Assembly: GCF_001613545.1 (NCBI RefSeq)
Contig: NZ_BDCO01000002.1
Location: 1,178,001 to 1,242,000 of the forward strand
Reading direction: 5' to 3'
DNA length: 64,000 nucleotides
DNA from: Terrimicrobium sacchariphilum
GTDB taxonomy: Bacteria > Verrucomicrobiota > Verrucomicrobiia > Chthoniobacterales > Terrimicrobiaceae
In this document: piece after piece, positions 200-51,416 of the stretch
How the letters are laid out: each line of letters starts with the position of its first letter
How positions within the stretch are numbered: position 1 is the stretch's first letter
Notes under the pieces: model-generated
The model's input: only the letters and a program-made list of their open reading frames with translations
The model's database searches: none
What the model was told of the DNA's origin: nothing
Made by a program: the position numbers and the translations under genes

Positions 200-216
200 G
201 CTTAAGCGTATAAGCA
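200..216. promoter_or_regulatory. GCTTAAGCGTATAAGCA, candidate operator at the LacI start
   Basis: It contains the perfect 8-bp palindrome GCTTAAGC and also the inverted arms GCTTA/TAAGC separated by six bases. It ends five bases before the regulator ATG at 221, a position suited to autorepression. A 15/17 match lies inside the prepilin gene at 2496-2512. Confidence 0.4.
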
Positions 217-220
217 ATCT

Positions 221-1270
221 ATGAAGCGCAAGTCGACCATGGCGGAAGTTGCGAAACTGGCGGGGGTTTCCGCGTCGGTGGTTTCGTATGTTTTGAATGG
301 CCGTGCAGTGGAAATGAGAATTCCTTCCGCCACGCAGGAGCGGGTGATGGAGGCCTGTCGTGAACTGGATTATCGGCGCGACTACCTGGCGAGCGCGATG
401 GCGGGCAAGCGTACCAAGGTTATCGGGGTGCTTTTCTGTAATAGCCGCGGGGATTTCATGAGCGACATCCTGAGCGGCATTTACGACGTCCTGCGGGAGA
501 ACGACCACCAGGTTGCGCTGACGATCGTGGACGACAATGTGAATATCGAGCGGGCCGATCTGGAGTCGCTCATACATCGGCGCGTGGATGGCATTGTGGC
601 CTTTCCGATCTGGGAGACACGCCCTGGCGACCATTGGCGCAAGGCGGTCGATTCCGGCATCCCGGTGATGTTTCTCAACATCGTGCCTAATGGCGTCAAT
701 GCCCCATCGATCGATATCGACAACTTCCAGGGAGGCCGCGAGGCCGCCCGGCTTGCGGTCCAGAATGGCTGTGAGGAGGCGGTGATGTACGAGTGCACGA
801 CTGGCACGCCTGGCCTGTCGGCGCGTGACGCCGGATTTGCACACGAGATCCGGCAGCTCGGAGTTCCTTTGCGGCGGATTCCCATGTCTTCCACTGGCGA
901 AGCGTTGGCGGAATGCCTCGTCTCCGCGGAAAAAGTGACGGGATTCTTTGTCTCACGTGCCTCGGATTTTGTTCCTCCCCTTCGCCGTCTGGTGGAGGAG
1001 GGTGTCGAGTTTGATTCCCGACACGTCTTTGTCACCATCGGCAGCGCGCCCGAGGCCCATTTCATTGCCAACCCCTGGTTCATGCTTCCGCATCCGGCCC
1101 GTCAAATGGGTCGCCTGGCGGCGGCCAAGCTGTTGGAAAGCATTCGCAACGAGAACTGCCCGATCGAGAAGATCGTTCTCCCCCATCATTGGACAGCCAA
1201 TGCAGCCGCCAGGGAATTGCTGGCCGGCGACGTACCGATTACCGAGGAGCGCCAAACCCGCTCTCTGTAA
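221..1270 (+). CDS. LacI-family transcriptional regulator
   Basis: This 349-residue cytoplasmic repressor should control the genes that follow in response to a sugar. The N-terminus is a LacI helix-turn-helix (AEVAKLAGVSASVVSYVLNG at about residues 8-27), followed by the hinge and a two-lobed periplasmic-binding-protein-like sensor from about residue 65 to 335, with the usual DGIVAFP segment near residue 130. Length is normal for LacI. No clear Shine-Dalgarno precedes the ATG; a second ATG lies six codons in. It is followed after 26 bp by a PEP-CTERM gene in the same direction. GCTTAAGC palindromes upstream suggest autoregulation. The ligand cannot be read from sequence. Confidence 0.93.
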   Translation: MKRKSTMAEVAKLAGVSASVVSYVLNGRAVEMRIPSATQERVMEACRELDYRRDYLASAMAGKRTKVIGVLFCNSRGDFMSDILSGIYDVLRENDHQVALTIVDDNVNIERADLESLIHRRVDGIVAFPIWETRPGDHWRKAVDSGIPVMFLNIVPNGVNAPSIDIDNFQGGREAARLAVQNGCEEAVMYECTTGTPGLSARDAGFAHEIRQLGVPLRRIPMSSTGEALAECLVSAEKVTGFFVSRASDFVPPLRRLVEEGVEFDSRHVFVTIGSAPEAHFIANPWFMLPHPARQMGRLAAAKLLESIRNENCPIEKIVLPHHWTANAAARELLAGDVPITEERQTRSL

Positions 1271-1296
1271 AAGCACAACATCAACATTAACTAACA

Positions 1297-1938
1297 ATGA
1301 AAAAAGCAAGGTACTCCACGACGTTCTTGTCAGGTTGTTTTCTCGCCATATGCGCCCTTTCGATCGGACGCGCTGGCGCTTCCGTGTTGATCGATCCGAT
1401 GGACTCCATCGGAAACTGGGGTGCCGGTGGCGGCCCTAACGCAAATCCCATCACGCTGGATGTTGATACCACCATCAAGACCGAGGGCACCGGTTCGCTC
1501 GACCTGACCGCGACCTTCCTCGACGTGGGCGGCGCCTATGCGGATCTCTATCTGTCGCTGTCCACTCCGCTGGACTTTAGCATGGATACCTTCAGCGTCG
1601 CGTTTCGCACGACCGACCCTGCTGCTTACGTCGTCTGGCGTCTCGGCACCGTGGAGGGTCCTGTGTATGAGGCGACGTATGTCCCCACGGCGGCCAACAC
1701 CTGGGGCACCATCTCGTTTACCGCGAGCGACTTCACCTCCAACGTGGCCAACCTCCAGAATGTGAACCTGATCCAGTTTCGTGTCATCGGCGATGCGGTG
1801 GGCAGCTTCCCAACCACGGTTTCCAACCACTTTGACAATCTGCAGATTGTCCCCGAACCCCAAACCTATGCGCTTCTGCTCGTGGGCGGTCTTTTCTTTC
1901 TCGTAGCCCGCCGCTCACGCTCAAGCGTGCGCGCCTGA
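1297..1938 (+). CDS. PEP-CTERM sorting-domain surface protein
   Basis: This 213-residue exported protein has an N-terminal signal peptide (MKKARYST then a hydrophobic core, cleavage near residue 29). A beta-rich body resembles carbohydrate-binding jelly rolls. The C-terminus is a typical PEP-CTERM tail: VPEP at residues 185-188, a hydrophobic helix ending in FFLVARR, and a basic end. In families with this tail the protein is processed by an exosortase and held at or released from the cell surface; no exosortase gene is in this window. It follows a LacI gene and begins the operon-like run to 12219. The function of the body is unknown; glycan or matrix binding is an inference. Confidence 0.88.
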   Translation: MKKARYSTTFLSGCFLAICALSIGRAGASVLIDPMDSIGNWGAGGGPNANPITLDVDTTIKTEGTGSLDLTATFLDVGGAYADLYLSLSTPLDFSMDTFSVAFRTTDPAAYVVWRLGTVEGPVYEATYVPTAANTWGTISFTASDFTSNVANLQNVNLIQFRVIGDAVGSFPTTVSNHFDNLQIVPEPQTYALLLVGGLFFLVARRSRSSVRA

Positions 1939-1948
1939 TATATCGCAC

Positions 1949-2470
1949 ATGAAAACCTCTCTCTTCTATCTGGCGGTATTTGCGGGGATGGGGCTGGTGA
2001 ACCTCTCTCCGCTGCAAGCCGGGGACATCTCTCTGGATTTCAAGCAAAGCGCCATCCGGGAGGAAAAAGGCAGCCAGTTGGCTTCCGGTACGTTTTCGGT
2101 GAAGGGCAACGATCTCTCTATCAAGGTGGAGACCTCGGCTTCATCGGAGTTCGACTTTTACCGTTTGGTCATCCCTGCCTCCGGCCAGGTGGATGTGGGC
2201 GCGAAGTTTGTCATGGAGGCGGATGTCACCCTCGCATCCGAAAACTTCCTCGACATCGTTCTGCAAACCGATGGTGGCACGCAGATATTTCACGCCATCA
2301 AGGAGTCCGTTTCCGGGCGCATCGAGATCCCAATCCGGGATTTCTCAGTGAGCGGCGAAGGGGCCTTTCCTTATAATATTGTCGAGATTCGGCTCATGGT
2401 TTCCGGCGACAAAAGCGCCGAGACGGGCGAGGATACTATCGTTATTAAGAAACTGGAGATTCTGGAGTGA
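1949..2470 (+). CDS. Small secreted beta-sandwich protein, carbohydrate-binding-like
   Basis: This 173-residue protein has a signal peptide (MKTSLFYLAVFAGMGLVNLSPLQA) and a single predicted beta-sandwich (IKVETSASSEFDFYRLVIPASGQVDVGAKF...) resembling the non-catalytic glycan-binding domains of multidomain glycosidases. No catalytic motif is visible. It starts 10 bp after the PEP-CTERM gene and its TGA overlaps the next gene's GTG start, so the three are probably co-translated. Similar small secreted proteins occur in the other modules (22192, 40043, 57174), which points to a shared accessory role such as substrate capture. The family assignment is tentative. Confidence 0.7.
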   Translation: MKTSLFYLAVFAGMGLVNLSPLQAGDISLDFKQSAIREEKGSQLASGTFSVKGNDLSIKVETSASSEFDFYRLVIPASGQVDVGAKFVMEADVTLASENFLDIVLQTDGGTQIFHAIKESVSGRIEIPIRDFSVSGEGAFPYNIVEIRLMVSGDKSAETGEDTIVIKKLEILE

Positions 2471-3108
2471 AGATGCACTTTCTTTTGCCCAAATTGCTCA
2501 AGCGCATAAGCAGGCGCGAGGCCTTCTCGCTGATGGAGGTCCTGGCCAGTGTGGCGATCATTGCGATCCTCGCAGCCTTGATCACTCCCCTGGCGGGACG
2601 GATGAGGGATCAGGCAAACCGGGCAAAGTGCATCTCAAACCAACGGCAGATATTTGTGGGTGTTAGTACCTACGCCACGGATCATAATAGCGAGGTGCCG
2701 TCCGCGCGGCCCGTGGCCCAGCAGGGGGAAACTTATCAGGGGCACATTTATAACGACGACACCTACGGCGCGTTGCTCCTGCTTTATCCCGGGTACGTGT
2801 CGGACAAGCGGGTGTTTGTCTGCCCCTCTGACAGGGAGAGCAATCGCCGCCGCTGGGAGGCCGACCAGATGTCGGGACTCTATACGAGCTACTTTGCCTA
2901 TCGCGATCTCGATAGCAATGGCGACCGCGTCAGGCGGTTCATCGCGACCGATCCCAACTACGCCGGGCGCCTCCCTCTCTTTGGGGATGCCGCCAGGAGC
3001 AACTTTCACAAGACCGGCTATAACGTCACATTCATGGACGGGCATTCGGAATTCGTGCCCGCCGAGATGTATCAAAAGGCCCCCTATGTGAACTTCTTTT
3101 GGGAGTAG
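2467..3108 (+). CDS. Prepilin-type protein, GspG/DUF1559-like pseudopilin
   Basis: This 213-residue protein has a type IV prepilin leader: basic residues, then A19|FSLMEVLA with Glu at +5 and a hydrophobic helix to about residue 45. Ala rather than Gly sits before the cut site. The C-terminal half carries the FMDGHSEFV signature seen in Planctomycetes/Verrucomicrobia pilin-like proteins (H-x9-DG type), plus a CPSDRE segment with a CISNQRQ motif after the helix. It would be processed by a prepilin peptidase and act in a pseudopilus or surface fibre. The GTG start overlaps the previous stop by four bases. An intragenic copy of the local GCTTAAGC-type palindrome lies at 2496-2512. Confidence 0.88.
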   Translation: MKMHFLLPKLLKRISRREAFSLMEVLASVAIIAILAALITPLAGRMRDQANRAKCISNQRQIFVGVSTYATDHNSEVPSARPVAQQGETYQGHIYNDDTYGALLLLYPGYVSDKRVFVCPSDRESNRRRWEADQMSGLYTSYFAYRDLDSNGDRVRRFIATDPNYAGRLPLFGDAARSNFHKTGYNVTFMDGHSEFVPAEMYQKAPYVNFFWE

Positions 3109-12304: not shown

Positions 12305-12853
12305 CTAGTGACGGGGGGAATTGCCTGCGCCCGTTTTGATCGCGGCCTCACCGAGGTTGTGATGGGCCACCACGGTACCGTCGTCGAGATGGTTCACGCG
12401 CTGGGAGCCGAGGAAGAAGGTGAGGAACCGCGCTCCCACCACGGGAATGACACCGAAATTTGCCAGGCCTGCGGCGAAGCCGAGAAAACCCGTGAAAATG
12501 CGGAAGCGCTTGCTGTAGCGAATCTCAAAAAACTGTGCCAGCGTGAGCGCGCGGGTTTCGCGGAACCGGTAGACAACCCATCCGCTGATCCCGACGATGA
12601 GCGTCACCGGAATGCTCAGCCATTCCCACCACGTCAGGACGAATCCGGACTTGGAGATACGCTCAAACATCGCCACGAAGACGACCGCGCCGACGCCCTG
12701 CTCGCCCTTGGCCACGGCGAGGAGATAGCGTCCCGCGAGGCGACCGCCGGAGAGAAAATCCGCCACGCTCTTCATGAAGCGGTGCGAGTAAAACCCGACG
12801 ACCAGCAGGATCAAGAGCGGGATGGTGATGATGAGCCAGTCTATCCAGTGCAT
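12305..12853 (-). pseudogene. Truncated Na+/solute symporter (SSS family)
   Basis: Only 182 residues, against about 500-600 for the family. The start is canonical for verrucomicrobial SSS transporters (MHWIDWLIITIPLLILLVVGFYS), with the helix-2 region (SDFLSGGRLAGRYLLAVAKGE) and the TRALTLAQFFEIRYSKRFRIF segment. The hydrophobic pattern ends near residue 150 and the last ~33 residues (from SQRVNH) are polar and unlike a transporter, then TAG. About two thirds of the transmembrane core is missing, so it cannot transport. It is the last gene of a minus-strand operon, 20 bp after the clan GH-A enzyme, suggesting a 3' deletion rather than a start error. A later frameshift was not found because the next DNA is the neighbouring gene's 3' end. 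Confidence 0.75.
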
Positions 12854-37945: not shown

Positions 37946-39010
37946 TCAGAAACTCTGGCGGACTGCGGGTCGCGTGGAATCCCGGTGAACGAGACGTACC
38001 GGCAGTCGGTCGCTCACCGGAGTGGGGGGCGTGTCGCGAAGCTCCTCTTCCTGTTGGTTTACCGCCCGCAGCTGGGTCAGCAGATGTCTCACGGCATGGC
38101 GGCCGATACCGATGGGGTCCTGCGCGATCGTCGTTAGCCGGGGACGTACTGCGGAGGCGATGCGCAGATCACCGAACCCGACGATCGAGACATCCTCCGG
38201 CACGCGGCGCCCGCAATCTTGAGTGGCGGCGAGCACGTCCATGGCCACCCAGTCGTTGAAACACACGATCGCGGTTGGGGCTTCCTCCATGGTGAGGAGT
38301 TCTCTCGCGTGACGGTAGATCTCCTCGGAGCCGTAGTTTTGGATGTCGCGCATCCACGTTTCGCGAACGGGCAACCCATGGCGCTCCATCGCGTGGCGAA
38401 ATCCCTCCACGCGGGCGCGGCCCGTGCTGATCTTTCGGTGGAAAATGTTGGCAATGCGCCGATGGCCGAGCTCGATGAGATGCTCGGTTGCGGCGATGCC
38501 TCCCTCATAGTCCTGGCTGCCGACGAAGGCATATTCCTCGACTCCGGCAAAGGTCTGGTCCACCACCACGATCGGCCTCTGAAAGGTTCGCAATTCTTGC
38601 AGATAGGCCGGGGTCGGCTGGTCTCCCGGCGGGAACATGAGCAAGCCATCGACCCGCCGCTCCGTGAAGGTCCGGAGCACTTTCTCGCCCTCGTGGACGC
38701 AGAGATCCCAACTGATCACGATCGTGTCGTAGGCGGCCTCATACAGCACCTCCAGCATGCCTTCCACGATGCGTCCGGAGAAATCATCACGGAAATCATT
38801 GCAGGTGAGGCCGATCGTCATGCTCCGACCCTTTTGGATGGCATGCACGAGCCGGTTGGGCCGGTAGTGGTGCTGGGCGGCCACGCTCAGGATGCGTTGC
38901 CGCGTCGTCTCCGAGACCCCCGCCTTCCCGCTGAGGGCTTTTGACGTGGCTCCGATTGATACACCGCATATCCGGGCGATTTCCGCGAGTGAGGACATAA
39001 CGGGCTTCAT
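37946..39010 (-). CDS. LacI-family transcriptional regulator (module 3)
   Basis: This protein has 354 residues from the ATG at 39010 (MKPVMSSLAEIARICGVS); the frame is open 49 codons further but that part runs over the operators and PEP-CTERM promoter. The helix-turn-helix is LAEIARICGVSIGATSKALSG, followed by a hinge and sugar-sensor domain (VDGLLMFPPGD, APTAIVCFNDWVAMDVLAA, VSIVGFGD). It is divergent from the PEP-CTERM gene across a region with three copies of GAGAAAnTACTTTCTC, which is probably its own operator; a fourth copy lies at 45480. Confidence 0.92.
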   Translation of the reverse strand: MKPVMSSLAEIARICGVSIGATSKALSGKAGVSETTRQRILSVAAQHHYRPNRLVHAIQKGRSMTIGLTCNDFRDDFSGRIVEGMLEVLYEAAYDTIVISWDLCVHEGEKVLRTFTERRVDGLLMFPPGDQPTPAYLQELRTFQRPIVVVDQTFAGVEEYAFVGSQDYEGGIAATEHLIELGHRRIANIFHRKISTGRARVEGFRHAMERHGLPVRETWMRDIQNYGSEEIYRHARELLTMEEAPTAIVCFNDWVAMDVLAATQDCGRRVPEDVSIVGFGDLRIASAVRPRLTTIAQDPIGIGRHAVRHLLTQLRAVNQQEEELRDTPPTPVSDRLPVRLVHRDSTRPAVRQSF

Positions 39011-39030
39011 ATCACTGGAAAAATGGCTGT

Positions 39031-39046
39031 GAGAAAAGACTTTCTT
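39031..39046. promoter_or_regulatory. Module-3 operator copy 1
   Basis: GAGAAAAGACTTTCTT is a match to the palindrome at 39126 with two mismatches. It lies 21 bp from the LacI start, as expected for autorepression. Confidence 0.55.
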
Positions 39047-39102
39047 AAAATCCACGGGCTGGCCGTGCGATTTTCCCCGGTTTTCCTCGTAAAAAGTCCT
39101 GA

Positions 39103-39118
39103 GAGAAAATACTTGCGC
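39103..39118. promoter_or_regulatory. Module-3 operator copy 2 (partial)
   Basis: GAGAAAATACTTGCGC matches the left part of the palindrome; the right arm is degraded. It lies seven bases before the full site at 39126. Confidence 0.45.
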
Positions 39119-39125
39119 AAATGGC

Positions 39126-39141
39126 GAGAAAGTACTTTCTC
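39126..39141. promoter_or_regulatory. Module-3 operator copy 3 (perfect palindrome)
   Basis: GAGAAAGTACTTTCTC is a perfect 16-bp palindrome ending 22 bp before the PEP-CTERM ATG. The near-identical site GAGAAAATACTTTCTC recurs 6.3 kb away before the module's prepilin gene. It is the likely operator of the adjacent LacI protein. Confidence 0.7.
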
Positions 39142-39163
39142 TATAGAAAGTTTCCACCTCACC

Positions 39164-39970
39164 ATGATCTCCCCATTCCCACTCAAATCCTCCCGTCTCC
39201 TCTCTTCAGCCGTTGCCGTTTTGGCTGTTGGGCTCAGCGCCATGTCGGCTGATGCCGCTCTGCTTACCTCCTGGACACAGTATTCCGGCTCGGTCAGCAG
39301 CGGGCTGAATACCGCCAGCCCGGTTCTCGGCAATGGCACGTCCAATTCTGGTGATAGTCAGTCAATCTACGCTGTTTCCCCGACCTACACGCTGAGTAGC
39401 GTAGGGGATTCCCTAACGCTCTCCGGCGGAGTGACATTTCTGAATCTTGAGACTCCCCAAGCCGATCAGTTCCGTTTTGGCCTGTATAATGTGAATGGCC
39501 AATCCGGTGGTCTCGGCTGGCTTGGCTACATGGCGTCGAACTCCGGCACCAGTGGAGGCTCGACCTACAGTCGGCTCTGGGAGCGGAATAATCCGAATAA
39601 CTTCAGCTTCGGCAGCGGTTCTGGTGCTACGACGGTAGCCAACGTGAATGCAACCCCGGGAAATACCGCCTTCGCCTCGGGCACCTACACGTTCTCCCTT
39701 ACGCTCACCCGTGTGGCCACGGGTCTCCAGGTGGGTTGGACGCTCATCGGTACAAATGTGAACTACACCGTCTCGGGCACTTATCTGGATACCACTCCGC
39801 AGACCTATACCTACGACCGCGTGGGCTTCTTCACTGGTGGTGGCCTCACCGCCGATCAGGTGAGCTTTTCAAATGTCGATCTCACCGTCGTTCCCGAGCC
39901 CGGCGTGGTGGGCCTCGTGGTGGCGGGTCTCACCTTCTGCTTCATTCTCAGGCGTCGCCGTCAGGCTTAG
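39164..39970 (+). CDS. PEP-CTERM surface protein (module 3)
   Basis: This protein has 268 residues from the ATG at 39164, which starts a signal peptide (MISPFPLKSSRLLSSAVAVL); the upstream frame crosses the operators. The body is beta-rich, Ser/Thr/Gly-rich (LSSVGDSLTLSGGVTFLN, QFRFGLYNVNGQSGGLGW) and similar in plan to the PEP-CTERM protein at 47461. The tail has VPEP at residues 243-246, a hydrophobic helix and RRRRQA. No Shine-Dalgarno is visible. It is immediately under the perfect module-3 operator. Confidence 0.88.
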   Translation: MISPFPLKSSRLLSSAVAVLAVGLSAMSADAALLTSWTQYSGSVSSGLNTASPVLGNGTSNSGDSQSIYAVSPTYTLSSVGDSLTLSGGVTFLNLETPQADQFRFGLYNVNGQSGGLGWLGYMASNSGTSGGSTYSRLWERNNPNNFSFGSGSGATTVANVNATPGNTAFASGTYTFSLTLTRVATGLQVGWTLIGTNVNYTVSGTYLDTTPQTYTYDRVGFFTGGGLTADQVSFSNVDLTVVPEPGVVGLVVAGLTFCFILRRRRQA

Positions 39971-40042
39971 CATCTTTGCCCGGCAGGTCTTATATTGCGA
40001 ATGATCTGCCGGGTTCCCCTGGTCATTCTCTCTTTCTTCCCC

Positions 40043-40648
40043 ATGAAACACCTCCTCCCTCTCTCGGCCCTCGTTCTTGCCTGTTTCTCCGGTTCGCTCC
40101 GCGCGGCGGATGCGCCTACGCTGCTCGCGGAATACGACTTCGAAAAAATCCCCGCCTATGTGCCCAACTGGGGCGCGGGACTCGGCAGCACCTACAAACC
40201 GGCCACAGGCTGGAAGACGCCGTTCAAGGTTTCGCTCGATCAGGACAACCCGCACTCCGGCGACAACTCTCTCCGCTTCGAGTTGCTGGAACCCTCCGAT
40301 AAGGAAAAGATCGTTCACAGCCCGGCCATCAAGGTCGAGCCAGCCGATGGCGAGAGAAAGGTCCGCGTGCGTCTCTTTGTGCGTTCGACGGGCTTCGGCG
40401 AGAAGGGTGCGGGTATCCGCATCCTGGAGCGCGATGAAGCGGGTGCCAGCATTCGCCTTCTGGGCGGATCGAAGACGCTCATTCCGGTGCCGGATTCCGC
40501 GGATTGGGTGGAACTCGATGCCGAGGGTGTCCTGCATTCGCGCACTGCGTCGATCTCCTTCATGGTGGTCGCTTATACGGAGGAGGCTCCGGCCACGCTC
40601 TGGATCGACGATGTGTCGATCGAATTGGTCCCCGCTGTCACGCCCTGA
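40043..40648 (+). CDS. Small secreted carbohydrate-binding-like protein
   Basis: This protein has 201 residues from the ATG at 40043, with a signal peptide MKHLLPLSALVLACFSGSLRA. A single beta-sandwich (NPHSGDNSLRFELLEPSD, RVRLFVRSTGFGEKGAGI, ATLWIDDVSIELV) matches the CBM4/9-like pattern, and the WIDDVSIEL end is typical of that fold. It lies between the PEP-CTERM protein and a GH39-like enzyme and is probably part of their transcript. Glycan binding is inferred. Confidence 0.75.
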   Translation: MKHLLPLSALVLACFSGSLRAADAPTLLAEYDFEKIPAYVPNWGAGLGSTYKPATGWKTPFKVSLDQDNPHSGDNSLRFELLEPSDKEKIVHSPAIKVEPADGERKVRVRLFVRSTGFGEKGAGIRILERDEAGASIRLLGGSKTLIPVPDSADWVELDAEGVLHSRTASISFMVVAYTEEAPATLWIDDVSIELVPAVTP

Positions 40649-40666
40649 TCACGCCCTGGATTTTCG

Positions 40667-43333
40667 ATGAAGGATATTCCCGTGTTCCTGCCGGGTCGGC
40701 GGCTCACGCTCGCCCTCACCCTGGCCTTGCTTGCTCCGACCGTGAGAGCCGCGGATGCTCCCTCCGGTCTTGCCTTTTCCTCGACGGCGAAGGGGAACAT
40801 TTTCACGGACGCCCAGGGAACCGTCACTCTGAAGGTGCCCGCCTCCATTGCCAGCGGCACGCTTACGGTGAAAAACGAGAGCGGCGCTGTCATTGAGACG
40901 CGCCCGCTCGCAGGAAACTCGGGGGATGTGTCGATCACGCTTCCGCAAAAGGGATTCTACGCGATTGATGCCGAGACGGTGCAGGCGGATGGGGCAAAAT
41001 CCCGCGGGTCCACGACCGCCGCCGTGGTCGGCCCGGTGCCTTCCGATGAAATGCGCCTCCAGTCCCGCCTCGGCCTCTGGACTGTGCAAGGGGACGCCGA
41101 TCTCGTACTTGCCGCTGGCGCCCGCTGGAACCGCCGCATGATTTCCATTCACAAGCTGGGTGAGAACATGCTCAGTGAGAATCCTCCCGCGGCCGAGAGC
41201 GTGCTCTTTCCGAAGTCGCCGTTCACTCAGGTCGGCGTGATGTCCTTCGGCCTTCCGCTCTGGCTCATGGAGCCGACTGATAAGAAAAAGAGCTTCGGCA
41301 ACCCGCTCAACAAGCCCACCGACTGGAACAAGCTCAAGGCGCTCGTCTCCGCCTGGGTGCGTCAGCAGGGGGAAAACTTTCCCGACTACTTCGAGATCTA
41401 CAACGAACCCGAGTGGCAGTGGAAAGGCGCGTCGAATGAAGACCTCGTGCGGGTGCTCGCCACCATCGCCGACGGGATCAAGGAAGCCAGCCCGAAGACT
41501 CAAGTGCTCGGCCCGGGATTCTCGTCCATCCGCATCAAGGACCCCGCCCGCCTCGATCTCGTCACCGCGAAGGAGCAGGGACTCTTTGATCATCTCGACG
41601 GGCTCGTCGTCCATGCCTACGTGGATGGTTCGGCTCCCGAGAAGGAGTTCATCCAGCGTGTTGAGGAACTTCAGGAGTTCCTGCGCGACATCGGGCGCCC
41701 CAAGTTTCCGATCCACATCACGGAGTTTGGCTGGACCTCCGGCAAAGGCACCTGGCAGAAGCCTGTCGACGAGATCACCCAGGCCCGCTATGTGACGCGT
41801 TCGCTCACCCTGCTCGCCGCCCTGGGCGTGGAGAATGCGACCTACTTCTGCCTGCAATTCAAGGCTGCTCCGAATCCCGGCGAGCGTGGCTTCTCGCTCG
41901 TTCACGACGACTCCACGCCGAAGCCCGGCTATGCCGCCTACGCCAATGTCGCCCGCTGGCTCGCTGGCGTGAAGGGGACAGGTACCTGGCTGCGTCTCAC
42001 GCCGACCACGCATCTCGTGCTCTTCGAGAAAAGCGACAACACCTCGATCGCCGTGGCATGGGACACGGAGGCCGAACGCGCAATCGGCCTGCCGCTGGTC
42101 ACCTCACGACGCGAGGACATGATGGGCCGCTCGCTGCCAGCTTCCGATACGCTGGCACTTTCGCCGAGTCCGATCTTTCTCGAGTTTTCCGAATCCCAAT
42201 CGCCCTCGATCGAAATGCTTGCGCGTCTCGACGTGATGCGCGGCGGCGAGGATGTCACCCTGCCGCGTGGCGGTGAGTGGATCGCTCCGGCTCCCCTGGT
42301 CGTCCGTGATGGCCGCCTTGCTGTCCCTGCCTCTGCTGCCAACGGAGATTACCTTCTCCTGACCCGCGACGGCCAGAAGTGGCTCGGCCAGCCCGTGAAG
42401 GTCATCCCTCCGCTCGAGGCCCGTCCGCCCGTTCTTGCCTGGCCCGCGGATCAGCAGGAGCCTTCGCTTGAGACGACTGTCATCTCGCATTCCGCCGTCC
42501 CAGTGACCACGCGGCTCGCGGTGAAGCTTGATGGAACCCGTGACCGGTTCCTCGAGGCCTCCGAGATTGCACCCGGCGAGACACGCCAGCTCTCGGTGCC
42601 GCTCGATGGACTCTCTCAAGGCACCCGGTATCGCGGCAAGATGGCCGTGGATAGCCGCCACGAGGGCCGCCGGGATGAAATCTCGCTCCCGCTGGATTTT
42701 ACCATTCTCTCCGCGGCTCCCGTACCGCGCGGCGGGCAACCCGACTGGAGCCAGATTCCGGCGGTGGATTTCTCAGCCTGGGACCCCTTTGGCGGTCCCA
42801 TTGCGCCCGAAGATTGCTCCGCGACGCTGCAGGCCGCTCATGGGGTGGAAGGATTGCACCTCCGCGTCGTCGTCCGTGATGATGAGCACCTCCAGACCCG
42901 CTCCGGCGAGGATATCTGGTCGCAGGATTCCATCCAGATCGGCCTCGATCCCGACCATCAGAAGACCTGGGAGGCTAATGACCTCTTCGGTCTCAAGGGA
43001 CATCGCGTCTTCGAGTACGGCGTGGCCTGGAATGGCAAGCAACCCATGACGTGGCGCTGGGTCTCCTACGTGCCGGAGCTTCCCGTCGGCGTCGCCGAGC
43101 CTCGCGTACAGCTCCGCGTGAAACGGGAAGGGGACATCACCACCTACGATATCCTGTTCCCATGGGCTGTCATGGGTCTCGACCGTCCCATGGCTGCGGG
43201 TTCCGCCATTGGCATCTCACTTTCTCTCGCCGACGCCGATACGGGCAAAACCAGCCGCCGCGCCCTGCGTCTCTACGGCGGCATCGCCGAGGGCAAGGAC
43301 CCGGAAAAATACGGCCCTCTCTGGCTCCGCTAA
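40667..43333 (+). CDS. Secreted clan GH-A enzyme, GH39-like, with CBM9-like C-terminus
   Basis: This 888-residue protein has a signal peptide (MKDIPVFLPGRRLTLALTLA). An N-terminal beta domain (~30-125) precedes a TIM barrel with acid/base E247 in IYNEPEW and nucleophile E353 in ITEFGWTS, the clan GH-A pair. Two beta domains follow and the C-terminus (~705-888; DWSQIPAVDFS, DSIQIGLDPD, GDITTYDILFPW) is CBM9/DOMON-like. It probably hydrolyses a plant or microbial polysaccharide outside the cytoplasm. It precedes the GHL6-type gene by six bases, so the two should be co-expressed. Confidence 0.85.
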   Translation: MKDIPVFLPGRRLTLALTLALLAPTVRAADAPSGLAFSSTAKGNIFTDAQGTVTLKVPASIASGTLTVKNESGAVIETRPLAGNSGDVSITLPQKGFYAIDAETVQADGAKSRGSTTAAVVGPVPSDEMRLQSRLGLWTVQGDADLVLAAGARWNRRMISIHKLGENMLSENPPAAESVLFPKSPFTQVGVMSFGLPLWLMEPTDKKKSFGNPLNKPTDWNKLKALVSAWVRQQGENFPDYFEIYNEPEWQWKGASNEDLVRVLATIADGIKEASPKTQVLGPGFSSIRIKDPARLDLVTAKEQGLFDHLDGLVVHAYVDGSAPEKEFIQRVEELQEFLRDIGRPKFPIHITEFGWTSGKGTWQKPVDEITQARYVTRSLTLLAALGVENATYFCLQFKAAPNPGERGFSLVHDDSTPKPGYAAYANVARWLAGVKGTGTWLRLTPTTHLVLFEKSDNTSIAVAWDTEAERAIGLPLVTSRREDMMGRSLPASDTLALSPSPIFLEFSESQSPSIEMLARLDVMRGGEDVTLPRGGEWIAPAPLVVRDGRLAVPASAANGDYLLLTRDGQKWLGQPVKVIPPLEARPPVLAWPADQQEPSLETTVISHSAVPVTTRLAVKLDGTRDRFLEASEIAPGETRQLSVPLDGLSQGTRYRGKMAVDSRHEGRRDEISLPLDFTILSAAPVPRGGQPDWSQIPAVDFSAWDPFGGPIAPEDCSATLQAAHGVEGLHLRVVVRDDEHLQTRSGEDIWSQDSIQIGLDPDHQKTWEANDLFGLKGHRVFEYGVAWNGKQPMTWRWVSYVPELPVGVAEPRVQLRVKREGDITTYDILFPWAVMGLDRPMAAGSAIGISLSLADADTGKTSRRALRLYGGIAEGKDPEKYGPLWLR

Positions 43334-43339
43334 ATCGCC

Positions 43340-45391
43340 ATGTCATCCGCTCTTCGCCAGGTTCATCTCGACTTCCACACCTCGCCGTTCATTCCCGATG
43401 TCGGCGCGGAATTCGACGCGCGCGAGTTTGCCGCGACCTTCAGGCGCGCCCGGGTCAATAGCGTGACCATCTTTGCCAAGTGCCACCATGGGATGTGCTA
43501 TTACCCCACGCAGACCGGCACTCCGCATCCCGCGCTGAATGGCCGCGACCTGCTCGGCGAGATGTTGGAAGCCCTCCGCGAGGAAGGCATTCGCTGCCCC
43601 GTCTACACCACCGTGGCGTGGGAGGAAAATGTCGCCGACCTTCACCCGGAGTGGCGGCAAATGCGGGCCGACGGCACCTTTGCCCGTTGTGAGAATGTCG
43701 ATCCCGCCCGCCCGCCGCATCCCGGCGGATGGAGGTTTAACGACTGGGTGCATCCCGACTATCTCGACTATCTCGAGGCGCACGTGCGCGAACTCTTCTC
43801 CCGCTACGGCCAGTTGGACGGGCTTTTCTTCGACATCCTGTTTTACGATCTGCTAGCTCATCACAGCGACGCCTGCCGCCGCTACCGTGCACGCCATGGC
43901 TTCGAGGCGGACGATGTCGAGACCTTCAAGCGCTTCGAATCTCACGCCCAGGCCAGCTTCGCCTCCCGCTTCACGAAGCTCATTCGCAGTCTCTCGCCGG
44001 AGAGCTCGGTCTTTTACAACACGCCCTTCGATGTCTATGTCGACGGCACCGGCGGCCGCCAGCGCCTGCCCCATCTCACCCATATCGAGATCGAGTCGCT
44101 GCCTTCGGGATTCTGGGGGTATTACCATTTCCCACGCCTGGCGCGCGGCGCGGGCCGGTGGGGCAAGCCCTGGGTCGGTATGACCGGTCGCTTCCAGCGC
44201 ATGTGGGGCGACTTTGGCGGGATCAAGCCCCAGGCCGCGCTGGAGTACGAGTGCTTCCGCTCACAGGCTCTCGGTGGCGGAAATTCCGTCGGCGACCAAC
44301 TCCCGCCTCGCGGCCGGCTCGATGCTGCGGCCTACGATCTCATCGGCGCGGTCTACGAACAATGCGAAGCCGCCGAGCCGTTCTATGCCGGCAGCGTGGA
44401 GCTCACCGATATCGGCATCCTCTCCGCAAACTTCCCCGGCAAGGATCTCTCCGCGACGGGCACGTCGGACGAGGGCGCGATCCAGATGTGTGAGGAGACG
44501 CATTACGAGGTCTCGCTCCTCGACGAGCACTCCGACCTCTCAGCCTGCCGCGGCCTCATTCTGCCGGACGATGTGGTCATCACGCCGCGCCTCTACAAGA
44601 AGCTCAAGGCCTACCACGCCGCAGGCGGCAAGCTGATCATCTCTCACCGCTCCGGTCGCGACATCTCGGGCCGCTGGGCGCTGGATTTCCTGCCCCTCGG
44701 CTTCAATGGCATGGTGGAAAAGTTCCCCACCTACTGGCGGGCGCGCAAGGACTTCTGGCCGGAGCTGAGCGCCAGCGACCGGGTCGTGTATTCCCAAGGG
44801 GTGAATGTCTTCCCGGGCAAGGGCGCCAGGGTGCTGGTCGATCGCGTGCTGCCGTATTTCAAGCGTACCGACCTGACCTTTTCCTCGCATTTTCAGACTC
44901 CGCCGCAGGCCGAGCCGGACCGCTTCCCGGCCGTCGTCTCGGGGAAGGGATTTGTATATTTCGCCGACCCGATTTTCCGCGAGTACCGGCAGACCGGCAA
45001 TCAGGCCGCCCGCGACGTCTGGCGCCGCATCATCCGCGACTTCGTCGGCGACCCACTCGTGGGTGCAGGTCTCCCGAGCACCATGCTTTGCATCCCGCGC
45101 CGCCGCGGCCGCGATCTGATCCTCACGCTCTTGCATTATGTGCCCGTGCGCAAAGCCCTCGAGATCGACGTGTGCGAGGAGCGCATGAGCTTCGCCGGCG
45201 AGTCGCTTGCCTTTTCCTCCAGCGTAAAGGAAGTCCGTCGGTTCGATACCGGTGAGACTCTCGAGCGCTCCGCGGACGGCAAGTGCTTCACCTTGCCGGT
45301 TACCAAGGGCCGCCTCCTCCTTGAAGTCCCGGGATTTTTCACCGCCAAAGCCAGCCGCCCCGTTCGAGCGGTCGCTACGAAACGGAAGTAG
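43340..45391 (+). CDS. GHL6 / beta-galactosidase-trimerisation family glycoside hydrolase
   Basis: This 683-residue protein has no signal peptide. The N-terminal barrel has the hypothetical glycosyl hydrolase 6 pattern (VNSVTIFAKCHHGMCYYPT, NDWVHPDYLDYLEAHVRELF, DGLFFDILFYD). A flavodoxin-like part follows from about residue 340 (GILSANFPG, CRGLILPDDVVITPRLYKKLKAYHAAGGKLIIS), as in GH42 trimerisation domains. Such proteins are annotated as alpha-fucosidase- or beta-galactosidase-like, but activity is not firmly known. It probably processes in the cytoplasm what the preceding secreted enzyme releases. Confidence 0.82.
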   Translation: MSSALRQVHLDFHTSPFIPDVGAEFDAREFAATFRRARVNSVTIFAKCHHGMCYYPTQTGTPHPALNGRDLLGEMLEALREEGIRCPVYTTVAWEENVADLHPEWRQMRADGTFARCENVDPARPPHPGGWRFNDWVHPDYLDYLEAHVRELFSRYGQLDGLFFDILFYDLLAHHSDACRRYRARHGFEADDVETFKRFESHAQASFASRFTKLIRSLSPESSVFYNTPFDVYVDGTGGRQRLPHLTHIEIESLPSGFWGYYHFPRLARGAGRWGKPWVGMTGRFQRMWGDFGGIKPQAALEYECFRSQALGGGNSVGDQLPPRGRLDAAAYDLIGAVYEQCEAAEPFYAGSVELTDIGILSANFPGKDLSATGTSDEGAIQMCEETHYEVSLLDEHSDLSACRGLILPDDVVITPRLYKKLKAYHAAGGKLIISHRSGRDISGRWALDFLPLGFNGMVEKFPTYWRARKDFWPELSASDRVVYSQGVNVFPGKGARVLVDRVLPYFKRTDLTFSSHFQTPPQAEPDRFPAVVSGKGFVYFADPIFREYRQTGNQAARDVWRRIIRDFVGDPLVGAGLPSTMLCIPRRRGRDLILTLLHYVPVRKALEIDVCEERMSFAGESLAFSSSVKEVRRFDTGETLERSADGKCFTLPVTKGRLLLEVPGFFTAKASRPVRAVATKRK

Positions 45392-45479
45392 CCAGGCTCT
45401 CCCAGAACGCCGAAAAGGCTTCCCTCCACCCCAAAACTAAACGCCTCCGCAAACACCACGGGAAAGATTTCTCTGGAAA

Positions 45480-45495
45480 GAGAAAATACTTTCTC
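45480..45495. promoter_or_regulatory. Module-3 operator copy 4
   Basis: GAGAAAATACTTTCTC differs from the perfect palindrome at 39126 by one base. It ends 20 bp before the prepilin ATG at 45516, so this gene appears to have its own promoter under the same repressor as the PEP-CTERM gene. Confidence 0.7.
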
Positions 45496-45515
45496 TAACT
45501 TGAAAGACGCCCCCC

Positions 45516-46130
45516 ATGAAGTATCGTCGCCGGAATCCGAACGGCCTTACCCTCATAGAAATCCTCGTTGTCATCGGCATCATCGCCGTGCTGGCGAGTT
45601 TGCTGTTCCCTGCGTTGAGCAGCACGCGCAAGGCGGCGGCGAATGCCGTCTGCGTGTCGAATCTCCGCCAGATTTTCCAACTCTCCGCCGTCTGGGCTAC
45701 GGACAATGATGGCTACGTGCCCCAGAGCCAGTGGTATGTGACGAACATGCCCACGAGGTACAGCAATCTCACCAAGTACGGCCTGACCCCCAAGATGACG
45801 ATTTGCCCGGCTTCCGGCCTGCAGTCGCCTACCTACGGCATCAGCAGTCGGCTGGTAACCTCCTCCGACCCGCAATGGGGGCCGGGAGACGTGTACTTCT
45901 GGTCGCACGGAAAATACAAACTCTCCCTCCTCTCGCCTCGCACCATCTTCTTCTCCGAGACCGGGAAGCAAAGCTGGAGCGGCAAAGCCGGAGCCTACAT
46001 CTCCGCCCCGGAATCCGCCGCCGCACCGCATGGGAACAAAGGGAATGTCCTTTATTGCGACGGCCACGTGGAGGCCTTGGGGACGAACGATCTGAAGAAG
46101 CTTGAGAACTGGTCATACGGCATTCCGTGA
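45516..46130 (+). CDS. Prepilin-type protein, GspG/DUF1559-like (module 3)
   Basis: This 204-residue protein has the leader MKYRRRNPNG|LTLIEILVVIGIIAVLA, with Glu at +5. A CVSNLRQIF segment follows the helix, as in the prepilin at 2467, and the C-terminal part has VLYCDGHVEAL, the DGH signature of the same type. It should be matured by a prepilin peptidase and join a pseudopilus-like structure. It is directly under module-3 operator copy 4. Confidence 0.9.
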   Translation: MKYRRRNPNGLTLIEILVVIGIIAVLASLLFPALSSTRKAAANAVCVSNLRQIFQLSAVWATDNDGYVPQSQWYVTNMPTRYSNLTKYGLTPKMTICPASGLQSPTYGISSRLVTSSDPQWGPGDVYFWSHGKYKLSLLSPRTIFFSETGKQSWSGKAGAYISAPESAAAPHGNKGNVLYCDGHVEALGTNDLKKLENWSYGIP

Positions 46131-50346: not shown

Positions 50347-51416
50347 GCCCGTCGCGGCCCGGCGGTGACTCTTTGCACGGTTGCGCCGGGACGCCACGTG
50401 CCTTCGACGAGCAGGCGCTGCGGGACGACCGGGATGCCGAGTTCGTTCCGGTTGATCATGGAGACGACGAGGTCGACGGCGGCTCGACCGATCAGAGCCG
50501 AGTTTTCATCGATACCGGAATGATTGCTGGAGGGATTGGTGACATTGCACATCGCCACTCCGACATCCGATGGCACCGATACGCCCAGCTCCTTGAGGAA
50601 GATGAAGACATCCTGATGGATGGTGACGATGCAATCCGGGCGATGTTTGCGAAACCACTTGGCAAAGGTCGAGAAGTTCCAGTCTTCCGGCACCGCGGGG
50701 ATAAGCACGGGAACGGCTTTTCCCGTGCTGTTCTTGCGTTGCTCTGAAAGGAACGCTCCCGACCAGTTGCCGTCGACCCGTTCGTCGAGGGCGCCCATGA
50801 TTGCCAGGCCCGGTCGGCGATAACCCAGGGCGCGCAGCCTGCGGCACAGGATCACCATGGAGCGGAAGTGGTGATTTGCCACCGCGTGAAAGGCGGGCCG
50901 TGTCATCGTATAGCCGAGGCTGATCACGGAAAACCGGCTCCAGTCGAGATTGAGGTGCGCCCGCGCACGACGCTGGGGCGCGTTGATGATCCCCTGGATA
51001 CCACGGGCCACGAGGATGCGCGAGGCGTTCAGGTGGGTCATTCCCGGCTCCCGCAGCCAGAACGGCTCGACCTTGTACCCGAGCTCCTCCGCTCGGAGAC
51101 ACGCGGCGTCGAAGTATTGACTCGCCGAGGCGAGCCCCTTCCATCCCTCGCGCGTTTCGTGGTTGGTCAGGAGCGCCAGGGTTGAGCGATATGCCGGGGG
51201 ACGTACGGAATTCCGATAGGCATTGAGGACGGAAAGGGATGGGTCCGGGACATACCCGAGGCGATCGGCGATGGCTCGGATATGGAGTTTGGTAGCCTCG
51301 GGAATGCTCGGATGTCCGCGCAGCGCCAGGGACACCGCGACCTGGCTGACTCGCGCCATGCGTGCGATGTCGCTTTGCGTGACACGTTTTTGATCAGGCT
51401 TTCCCATGCTTGGCAT
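50334..51416 (-). CDS. LacI-family transcriptional regulator (module 4)
   Basis: This 360-residue protein has the helix-turn-helix VTQSDIARMARVSQVAVSLALRG and a normal hinge, then a sensor domain that is less typical than the others (ILVARGIQGIINAPQ, DCIVTIHQDVFIFLKELG). The ATG at 51416 has AGGA upstream; MGKPD could be an alternative. It starts seven bases after cassette protein A2 and precedes the symporter, so it is co-oriented with cassette 2. The CTTTTAC-type repeats around module 4 are its probable operators. Confidence 0.9.
   Translation of the reverse strand: MPSMGKPDQKRVTQSDIARMARVSQVAVSLALRGHPSIPEATKLHIRAIADRLGYVPDPSLSVLNAYRNSVRPPAYRSTLALLTNHETREGWKGLASASQYFDAACLRAEELGYKVEPFWLREPGMTHLNASRILVARGIQGIINAPQRRARAHLNLDWSRFSVISLGYTMTRPAFHAVANHHFRSMVILCRRLRALGYRRPGLAIMGALDERVDGNWSGAFLSEQRKNSTGKAVPVLIPAVPEDWNFSTFAKWFRKHRPDCIVTIHQDVFIFLKELGVSVPSDVGVAMCNVTNPSSNHSGIDENSALIGRAAVDLVVSMINRNELGIPVVPQRLLVEGTWRPGATVQRVTAGPRRAISL

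Follow-up and report, generated by a model that had tools for sequence, protein, structure and literature searches.

Within the window (the whole stretch of DNA that was analysed, 64,000 nucleotides), a lacI gene diverges from a run of genes which comprises, to the right of the divergent region, a PEP-CTERM protein, a secreted 217-residue protein, GH39-like and GHL6 glycosidases and then, beyond a further copy of a shared palindrome, a prepilin (Table 1). The regulator displays both features of LacI membership (PF00356 at 37.4 bits against a cut-off of 27, PF13377 at 126 bits); its HTH domain and its orthologues place the start of the gene, very probably, close to 39010 (MKPVMSSLAEIAR...) and not at 39157. 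The PEP-CTERM tag was recognised by TIGR02595 (21.5 bits, cut-off 16) and, genome-wide, by PF07589 (21.4 bits, cut-off 20.7), the protein having given no Pfam match at the threshold of the initial protein scan; the genome holds one exosortase match (PF09721, 153 bits), as required of a PEP-CTERM/exosortase system. The prepilin assignment rests on PF07963 (27.4 bits, cut-off 21.2) together with TIGR02532 and TIGR04294, both over cut-off. That the 217-residue protein is CBM-like is a guess. AlphaFold models of the PEP-CTERM protein and the prepilin were poor (mean pLDDT 38 and 42, respectively, from alignments of five sequences each), and we therefore make no claim from them.

Table 1. Genes and putative operators of the lacI/PEP-CTERM/prepilin locus, in window coordinates.
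Feature	Position	Strand	Basis and remarks
lacI, LacI-family repressor, HTH and Peripla_BP_3 sensor	37946..39010	-	PF00356, PF13377; hinge NRLVHAI
Operator O3	39031..39046	none	GAGAAAAGACTTTCTT; 2 mismatches; 20 bp upstream of lacI; window motif scan
Operator O2	39103..39118	none	GAGAAAATACTTGCGC; 2 mismatches; 23 bp from O1; window motif scan
Operator O1	39126..39141	none	GAGAAAGTACTTTCTC; 0 mismatches, perfect 16-bp palindrome; 22 nt before PEP-CTERM ATG
PEP-CTERM (exosortase-sorted) secreted protein, 268 aa	39164..39970	+	TIGR02595 over cut-off; ATG 39164
Secreted 217-aa protein, cassette member	39995..40648	+	no Pfam match; orthologues in 8/8 loci, 40-94% identity
GH39-like glycosidase, C-terminal CBM9_1	40667..43333	+	PF01229, PF06452; orthologue in 8/8 loci
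GHL6 / alpha-L-fucosidase-like glycosidase	43340..45391	+	PF14871, PF01120; orthologue in 7/8 loci
Operator O4	45480..45495	none	GAGAAAATACTTTCTC; 0 mismatches; 20 nt before prepilin ATG
Prepilin, N-terminal methylation motif and C-terminal H-X9-DG	45516..46130	+	PF07963, TIGR02532, TIGR04294; ATG 45516

Four palindromic sites and their rarity

The motif GAGAAAnTACTTTCTC occurs in four copies near the lacI, PEP-CTERM and prepilin genes, two of them exact and two with 2 mismatches, and the window contains no other match at up to 3 mismatches; counted by strand, 8 matches were observed, against a mean of 0.64 and a maximum of 4 in 100 dinucleotide shuffles. The original prediction had placed three copies in the 39011-39163 intergenic region and one directly before the prepilin at 45516, one of them a perfect 16-bp palindrome, and this is what we find (copies beginning at 39031, 39103, 39126 and 45480), the perfect copy being O1 and those at 39031 and 39103 being imperfect. 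O4 differs from O1 by one base, and the sites of the divergent region are spaced by 23 bp (O1-O2) and 72 bp (O2-O3).

Across the genome of this soil bacterium (Terrimicrobium sacchariphilum NM-5T, 4,751,807 bases or 4.75 Mb in three contigs; PMC5532833), the exact motif is confined to 39126 and 45480. Allowing up to two mismatches yields 11 places, the four cluster sites included; the other seven (one with 1 mismatch, at C2:870342, and six with 2) are at chance level, since their 10 strand-matches compare with 8 in a reversed control, and six of the seven lie inside open frames of at least 150 codons, the exception being L004 (C2:64695). Although the single-mismatch copy adjoins another prepilin, we discounted it as a chance match, since it falls within the coding sequence of an IclR-family gene. 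Sites upstream of the regulator's own gene and of neighbouring carbohydrate genes, with few elsewhere, are what is asked of a local LacI regulon, and the locus meets this description.

Conservation of the sites and of the gene set

Both sister species of the genus have all four sites, in the same places and at nearly the same spacing. Across the three species, all 48 operator columns of the divergent region are invariant (O2 and O3 at 16 of 16 columns each) as against 69 of the 105 others (Fisher p = 1e-7). Upstream of the prepilin, 66 consecutive columns (45450-45515) are invariant; because this holds for the whole stretch, the conservation supports a promoter region without singling out O4 (Fisher p = 0.13).

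Outside the genus, six orthologous loci are available. A scan of genome contigs for relatives of the regulator returned the two sister species together with L091 (75% identity) and L092 (73%, an Opitutaceae MAG), and a sample of 384 genomes of the class contained seven with a LacI match at E <=1e-80, namely the three of the genus and four from two other families (L121-L124, 56-60% identity). At all six loci (LacI orthologues at 55-75% identity) the core GAAAnTACTTTC is present before lacI with at most 1 mismatch. At this tolerance the nine orthologous stretches (165 kb in total) contain 23 matches, against 2 in the reversed control, of which 18 lie upstream of lacI, three before the prepilin (all in the genus), two in a GH28-like ORF and none elsewhere; at exactly 2 mismatches the count falls to chance (20 against 23 in the control). 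The two GH28-like ORF matches, in L121 and L123, fall in the first ~100 nt of the mechanical ORF, whose neighbour in L123 is a gene matching MFS, and the GH28 likeness itself is over cut-off in L121 and below it in L123. O4 is thus restricted to this genus (three of the nine loci, one lineage). L091 and L092 each carry three motif copies between lacI and the PEP-CTERM gene, spaced by 22-23 bp and 68-75 bp: the copy nearest the PEP-CTERM gene has 0 and 1 mismatches, respectively, the O2 counterpart lies 22-23 bp from it, and the O3 counterpart nearest lacI is weaker, with 3 mismatches in both. The prediction would have been refuted by a motif that was common genome-wide or absent from the orthologous loci of relatives; the motif proves to be rare, and present at those loci.

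The genes are kept in changing orders. The prepilin directly follows the PEP-CTERM gene in L091 and L092; in L121-L123, lacI, prepilin, the 217-residue protein and GH39 lie on one side with PEP-CTERM and GHL6 on the other; L124 retains lacI, prepilin, the 217-residue protein and GH39 with no adjacent PEP-CTERM or GHL6 orthologue (GHL6 giving only a 25% partial match there). Identity to the focal PEP-CTERM protein is just 27-32% for its counterparts in L121-L123, and in L091, L092, L121 and L123 the tag is below the Pfam cut-off or unmatched, so that the label in these four relatives rests on reading the C-terminus, where the tag can be made out.

Control of the prepilin and identity of the regulator

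We read the locus as a shared LacI regulon that joins lacI, the PEP-CTERM gene, the glycosidases and the prepilin, and put the probability of this reading, inferred from comparison without binding or expression data, at about 0.8. The prediction had gone further and assigned the prepilin its own repressed promoter under the same LacI protein as the PEP-CTERM gene. Co-regulation is well supported by the rarity and conservation of the sites; the separate promoter remains an inference because no usable promoter was recognised (at O1 no sigma-70-like match, and near O4 only one, overlapping the start codon). Nor was a terminator-like site found in the 124-bp gap between GHL6 and the prepilin, so read-through is not excluded: LacI could run the whole gene run from O1-O3, with the prepilin transcribed by read-through from GHL6 and O4 acting as a road-block or loop partner. 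Such an arrangement would suit both the unterminated gap with its promoter-like match only over the start codon and the position of the prepilin directly behind the PEP-CTERM gene in L091 and L092, whereas the placing of O4 20 nt before the ATG, resembling that of O1 before the PEP-CTERM gene (22 nt), and the invariant columns around it in three species, as expected of a promoter, argue for a separate start. We regard read-through as unlikely, if still to be reckoned with.

Operator sharing could also be real with the prepilin as a mere passenger, functionally tied to neither the PEP-CTERM protein nor the enzymes, and prepilins are indeed very numerous in this genome (110 over cut-off). Against this stands the descent of the gene. 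When the L091 prepilin was compared with the whole genome, the focal prepilin was the best of 67 matches (3e-26, over most of the length), the next-best (2.6e-12) being over the N-terminus, and each of the six cassette prepilins found beyond the genus, when set against 41 prepilins, likewise has the focal one as its best hit. A 47-row tree places seven cassette prepilins together on one side of a branch with support 92/96, seen in 93% of 200 bootstrap trees and with 0 of 500 label shuffles as low, the value of 92 falling just under the tool's mark of 95; the tree takes in seven of the nine cassette prepilins, the two sister species being left out, and only those 41 genome prepilins that lie near LacI genes, one cut by the end of its stretch having been dropped. 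Because the cassette prepilins group together among the genome prepilins compared, a dedicated prepilin travels with the repressor and glycosidases. On this sequence evidence, four different gene orders all hold one prepilin lineage together with the same repressor and the same enzymes. Since L124 keeps prepilin, lacI and glycosidase without an adjacent PEP-CTERM gene, the tie of the prepilin is in the first place to the repressor and the enzymes. At all six loci outside the genus the prepilin sits within the cassette, after the PEP-CTERM gene or after lacI, without an operator of its own; it has one only in this genus, where it stands at the far end of the cassette. A lineage retained throughout, and given its own operator only when apart from the O1 promoter and lacI, is our strongest argument for a common regulon.

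Proximity in the rest of the genome also weighs against a passenger. Counting only matches over the cut-offs, there are 44 LacI HTH domains, 110 prepilin motifs and 99 PEP-CTERM tags in the genome. Of the 44 LacI genes, 23 have a prepilin no more than 5 kb away, where rotation predicts 6.8 (p 0.0014); for PEP-CTERM tags the corresponding number is 20 (8.2 expected, p 0.0018), and 12 have both at that distance (2.5 expected). Rotation preserves the clustering of LacI genes and leaves shared clustering in carbohydrate islands unaccounted for. We judge a passenger prepilin rather improbable; both it and read-through are in any case compatible with the shared LacI regulon. The further suggestion that the prepilin and the PEP-CTERM protein work together holds as far as co-regulation and co-inheritance go, physical cooperation being beyond the evidence.

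Does the adjacent repressor itself bind the palindrome? The sites meet the LacI-family expectation of an even-length palindrome (16 bp, perfect in O1) and depart from the usual central CG: the centre is TA in O1, O2 and O4 and different again in O3, and TA also recurs in the strongest site upstream of lacI at each orthologous locus. According to Ravcheev et al. (2014), even palindromes were assigned to 1251 of 1303 LacI regulators, with a CG centre for 1173 and a different central pair for 49 (PMC4052901); the CG centre is contacted by a conserved hinge Ala and a hydrophobic residue that is Leu in 82% (PMC2978694). In our alignment, the focal hinge places Val and Ile at the usual Ala and Leu positions, and VHAI is found in nine of nine orthologues; of the 39 LacI proteins of the genome that were parsed, the focal one alone has Ile at the Leu position. 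The argument is weakened because only six of these 39 have the usual Ala, Val being common in its place (the pattern failed to parse 5 of the 44 proteins and gave a visibly wrong result for at least one other). A Val/Ile hinge matched to a TA operator centre may hence be called suggestive, not proof.

With no binding data, and with 44 LacI-family HTH domains over cut-off in the genome, the palindrome might instead belong to another regulator encoded elsewhere, the adjacent lacI being merely one of its targets. We hold this to be very improbable: the core tracks the LacI orthologue group across nine loci, of which six lie outside the genus, always upstream of lacI, and the exact 16-mer occurs in only 4 of 58 related genomes (absent from 54), which are the three of the genus that carry this orthologue and one with a copy inside an ABC-transporter ORF. 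Some LacI homologue is found in 41 of these 58, none outside the genus exceeding 37% identity among the matches listed. That the repeat acts as RNA, as a 6-bp stem-loop in the 5' leader and not as a DNA operator, is scarcely credible, for although O1, O3 and O4 can be folded into such a hairpin, O2 cannot, O1, O2 and O4 all retain the TA centre that would form the loop, and the copies in front of lacI stand before the divergent gene too.

Private palindromes, proposed mechanism and known systems

Palindromes upstream of LacI genes were compared with those in front of prepilin and PEP-CTERM genes, within-locus pairs being set against between-locus pairs. The best matches fall within loci, the focal pair agreeing at 15/16 and three further pairs as follows: LacI C2:1077035 with a PEP-CTERM gene (14/15), LacI C2:807623 with a PEP-CTERM gene (14/16) and LacI C2:701421 with a prepilin (12/14). 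No between-locus pair reached these four top scores in its class (0/614, 0/604, 0/394 and 0/899), though one in the third class came near, at 13.5 against 14. At lower scores, and in the whole 15-mer prepilin class, within-locus pairs are not clearly better than between-locus pairs, and the test is carried by its four top pairs. The sites of the three additional loci lie 67, 41 and 30-48 nt before likely start codons; a search of the sister species for two of the three motifs showed ATCGAACnGTTCGAT to be kept in both and TCACATCCGGATnnGA in one of the two. The LacI gene at window position 236 (GCTTAAGCGTATAAGC) was not counted among them, its prepilin copy lying inside coding sequence. Because a looser screen gave no recurring palindrome at p <2e-3 (uncorrected) in 38 of the 44 LacI loci, private palindromes can be claimed for at least four loci but not for every one.

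A mechanism can be proposed for the focal locus, in which LacI binding, repression, release by sugar, promoter control at O4 and a common polysaccharide for both surface proteins are all inferred. Without inducer, the LacI protein would occupy O1, O2 and O3 and shut the divergent promoters of lacI and of the PEP-CTERM/217-aa/GH39/GHL6 run, and from O4 it would shut a separate prepilin promoter at the far end of that run; as O1 and O4 end so shortly before their start codons (22 and 20 nt), bound repressor would therefore cover the promoter end or transcription start. An oligosaccharide from the target polysaccharide would release LacI, and the enzymes would then be switched on along with a single exosortase-sorted surface protein and one specific pseudopilin. 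The likely product, again by inference, is an apparatus at the cell surface that is specific to its substrate and serves binding, secretion or uptake, and for which the cell may draw on its common pilus or type II secretion machine (a machine that was not itself looked for).

Local LacI regulons such as this are an already known kind of regulator; the novelty is in what this one contains, namely a PEP-CTERM protein and a dedicated prepilin as members of a sugar regulon whose operator centre is unusual. In the open-licence literature searched (judged partly from titles) we found no paper that links PEP-CTERM proteins, LacI and prepilins, and how prepilin and PEP-CTERM genes are controlled in the phylum looks open. 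We tentatively suggest, as a possibility that falls short of an even chance, that the prepilins and PEP-CTERM proteins of Verrucomicrobiota are interchangeable substrate-specific parts: each sugar-type LacI, through a private operator, would command its own dedicated pseudopilin, often its own exosortase-sorted protein, and matching glycosidases, one secretion or uptake machine being re-equipped per polysaccharide much as SusCD pairs serve in Bacteroidota. Strain NM-5T can be grown on many sugars (PMC5532833). With one prepilin, one PEP-CTERM protein and one glycosidase set, the locus offers a direct handle on the inducing sugar and on the role of the pilin in growth on the parent polysaccharide, and the recurrence of the same gene set and DNA switch in distant relatives makes the role of the phylum's many mysterious pilins testable.

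The closest known systems are instructive in what they share with this locus and where they part from it. Like the local LacI-family sugar regulons reconstructed in PMC4052901, ours has an even palindrome, targets comprising its own gene and neighbouring glycosidases, few sites per genome and an orthologue-specific motif; unlike them, it has a TA centre in place of CG and includes prepilin and PEP-CTERM targets, and a search of the main text of that paper (Ravcheev et al, 2014) turned up none of Verrucomicrobia, pili and PEP-CTERM. The proteobacterial PEP-CTERM/EpsH system with PrsK/PrsR sigma-54 control, as set out by Haft et al. (2006; PMC1569441), shares with the locus a cis-regulatory motif before the PEP-CTERM gene and an exosortase in the genome, and pepA expression is given as RpoN-dependent in PMC9850573; we propose, in contrast to sigma-54 control, a sugar-type repressor with a private motif. 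A table in PMC1569441 credits Verrucomicrobium spinosum with 65 PEP-CTERM genes and none of PrsK, PrsR and PrsT, and the regulon suggests an answer for such a PEP-CTERM-rich phylum in which that species lacks known PEP-CTERM regulators.

Two further comparisons concern glycan use at the cell surface. The mucin utilization loci and pili of Akkermansia tie verrucomicrobial pilin-like proteins to glycan use, and we know of no LacI operator link there. Polysaccharide utilization loci of Bacteroidota bring a sugar-sensing regulator, glycosidases and surface proteins into one co-regulated block. No SusC/SusD-like protein was found among the 10 proteins scanned, so the cassette does not qualify as a locus of the Bacteroidota type; it resembles one in pairing a sugar-type regulator with glycosidases and surface proteins, and differs in that the surface proteins are a pseudopilin and an exosortase-sorted protein.

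Distribution and reach of the focal LacI orthologue

The orthologue of the focal LacI repressor is absent from 55 of the 58 sampled relatives (among the matches listed) yet is found in other families at 55–75% identity, an uneven spread that suggests either that the block was transferred whole or that it was lost in some lineages. At L121 and L123, two loci outside the genus that carry the orthologue, additional copies of the operator core (at 12696 and 16737, respectively) fall within the first ~100 nt of a GH28-like ORF; this ORF adjoins an MFS transporter gene, and the regulon of the focal LacI in this family seems to reach into a transporter region.

Further regulator–prepilin neighbourhoods

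A second LacI gene, at the left end of the window, encodes its HTH at 236–379 and is followed by a PEP-CTERM tag (~1849) and a prepilin (~2509). The palindrome GCTTAAGCGTATAAGC occurs at 200 and again at 2496, the latter copy falling within the coding start of the prepilin. Three prepilin motifs lie 4.7–5.7 kb to the right of a further LacI-type gene, and one more regulator–prepilin neighbourhood involves a regulator of the IclR family.

Coordinates of regulator genes and neighbouring prepilins
Feature	Position	Genome position (C2)	Remark
Second LacI gene, then PEP-CTERM tag and prepilin	window 200-2600	1178200-1180600	
Further LacI-type gene	window 51243-51374		minus strand
Prepilin directly before IclR-family regulator gene	L003 (stretch of same genome) 530-2074		elsewhere in genome

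Motifs and hinges of other LacI proteins

Exact copies of the motif TCACATCCGGATnnGA, which is presumed to be the operator of another LacI (C2:807623), stand at five sites in an 18-kb stretch (G000:C2:793926-811866), with a sixth at C2:3571660; together with a similar cluster in one sister species, these point to a larger regulon. Many LacI proteins of the genome carry an unusual hinge (e.g., YRPDPMLSALTAYRR) that replaces the usual Ala..Leu pattern, and their operators may be unusual as well.
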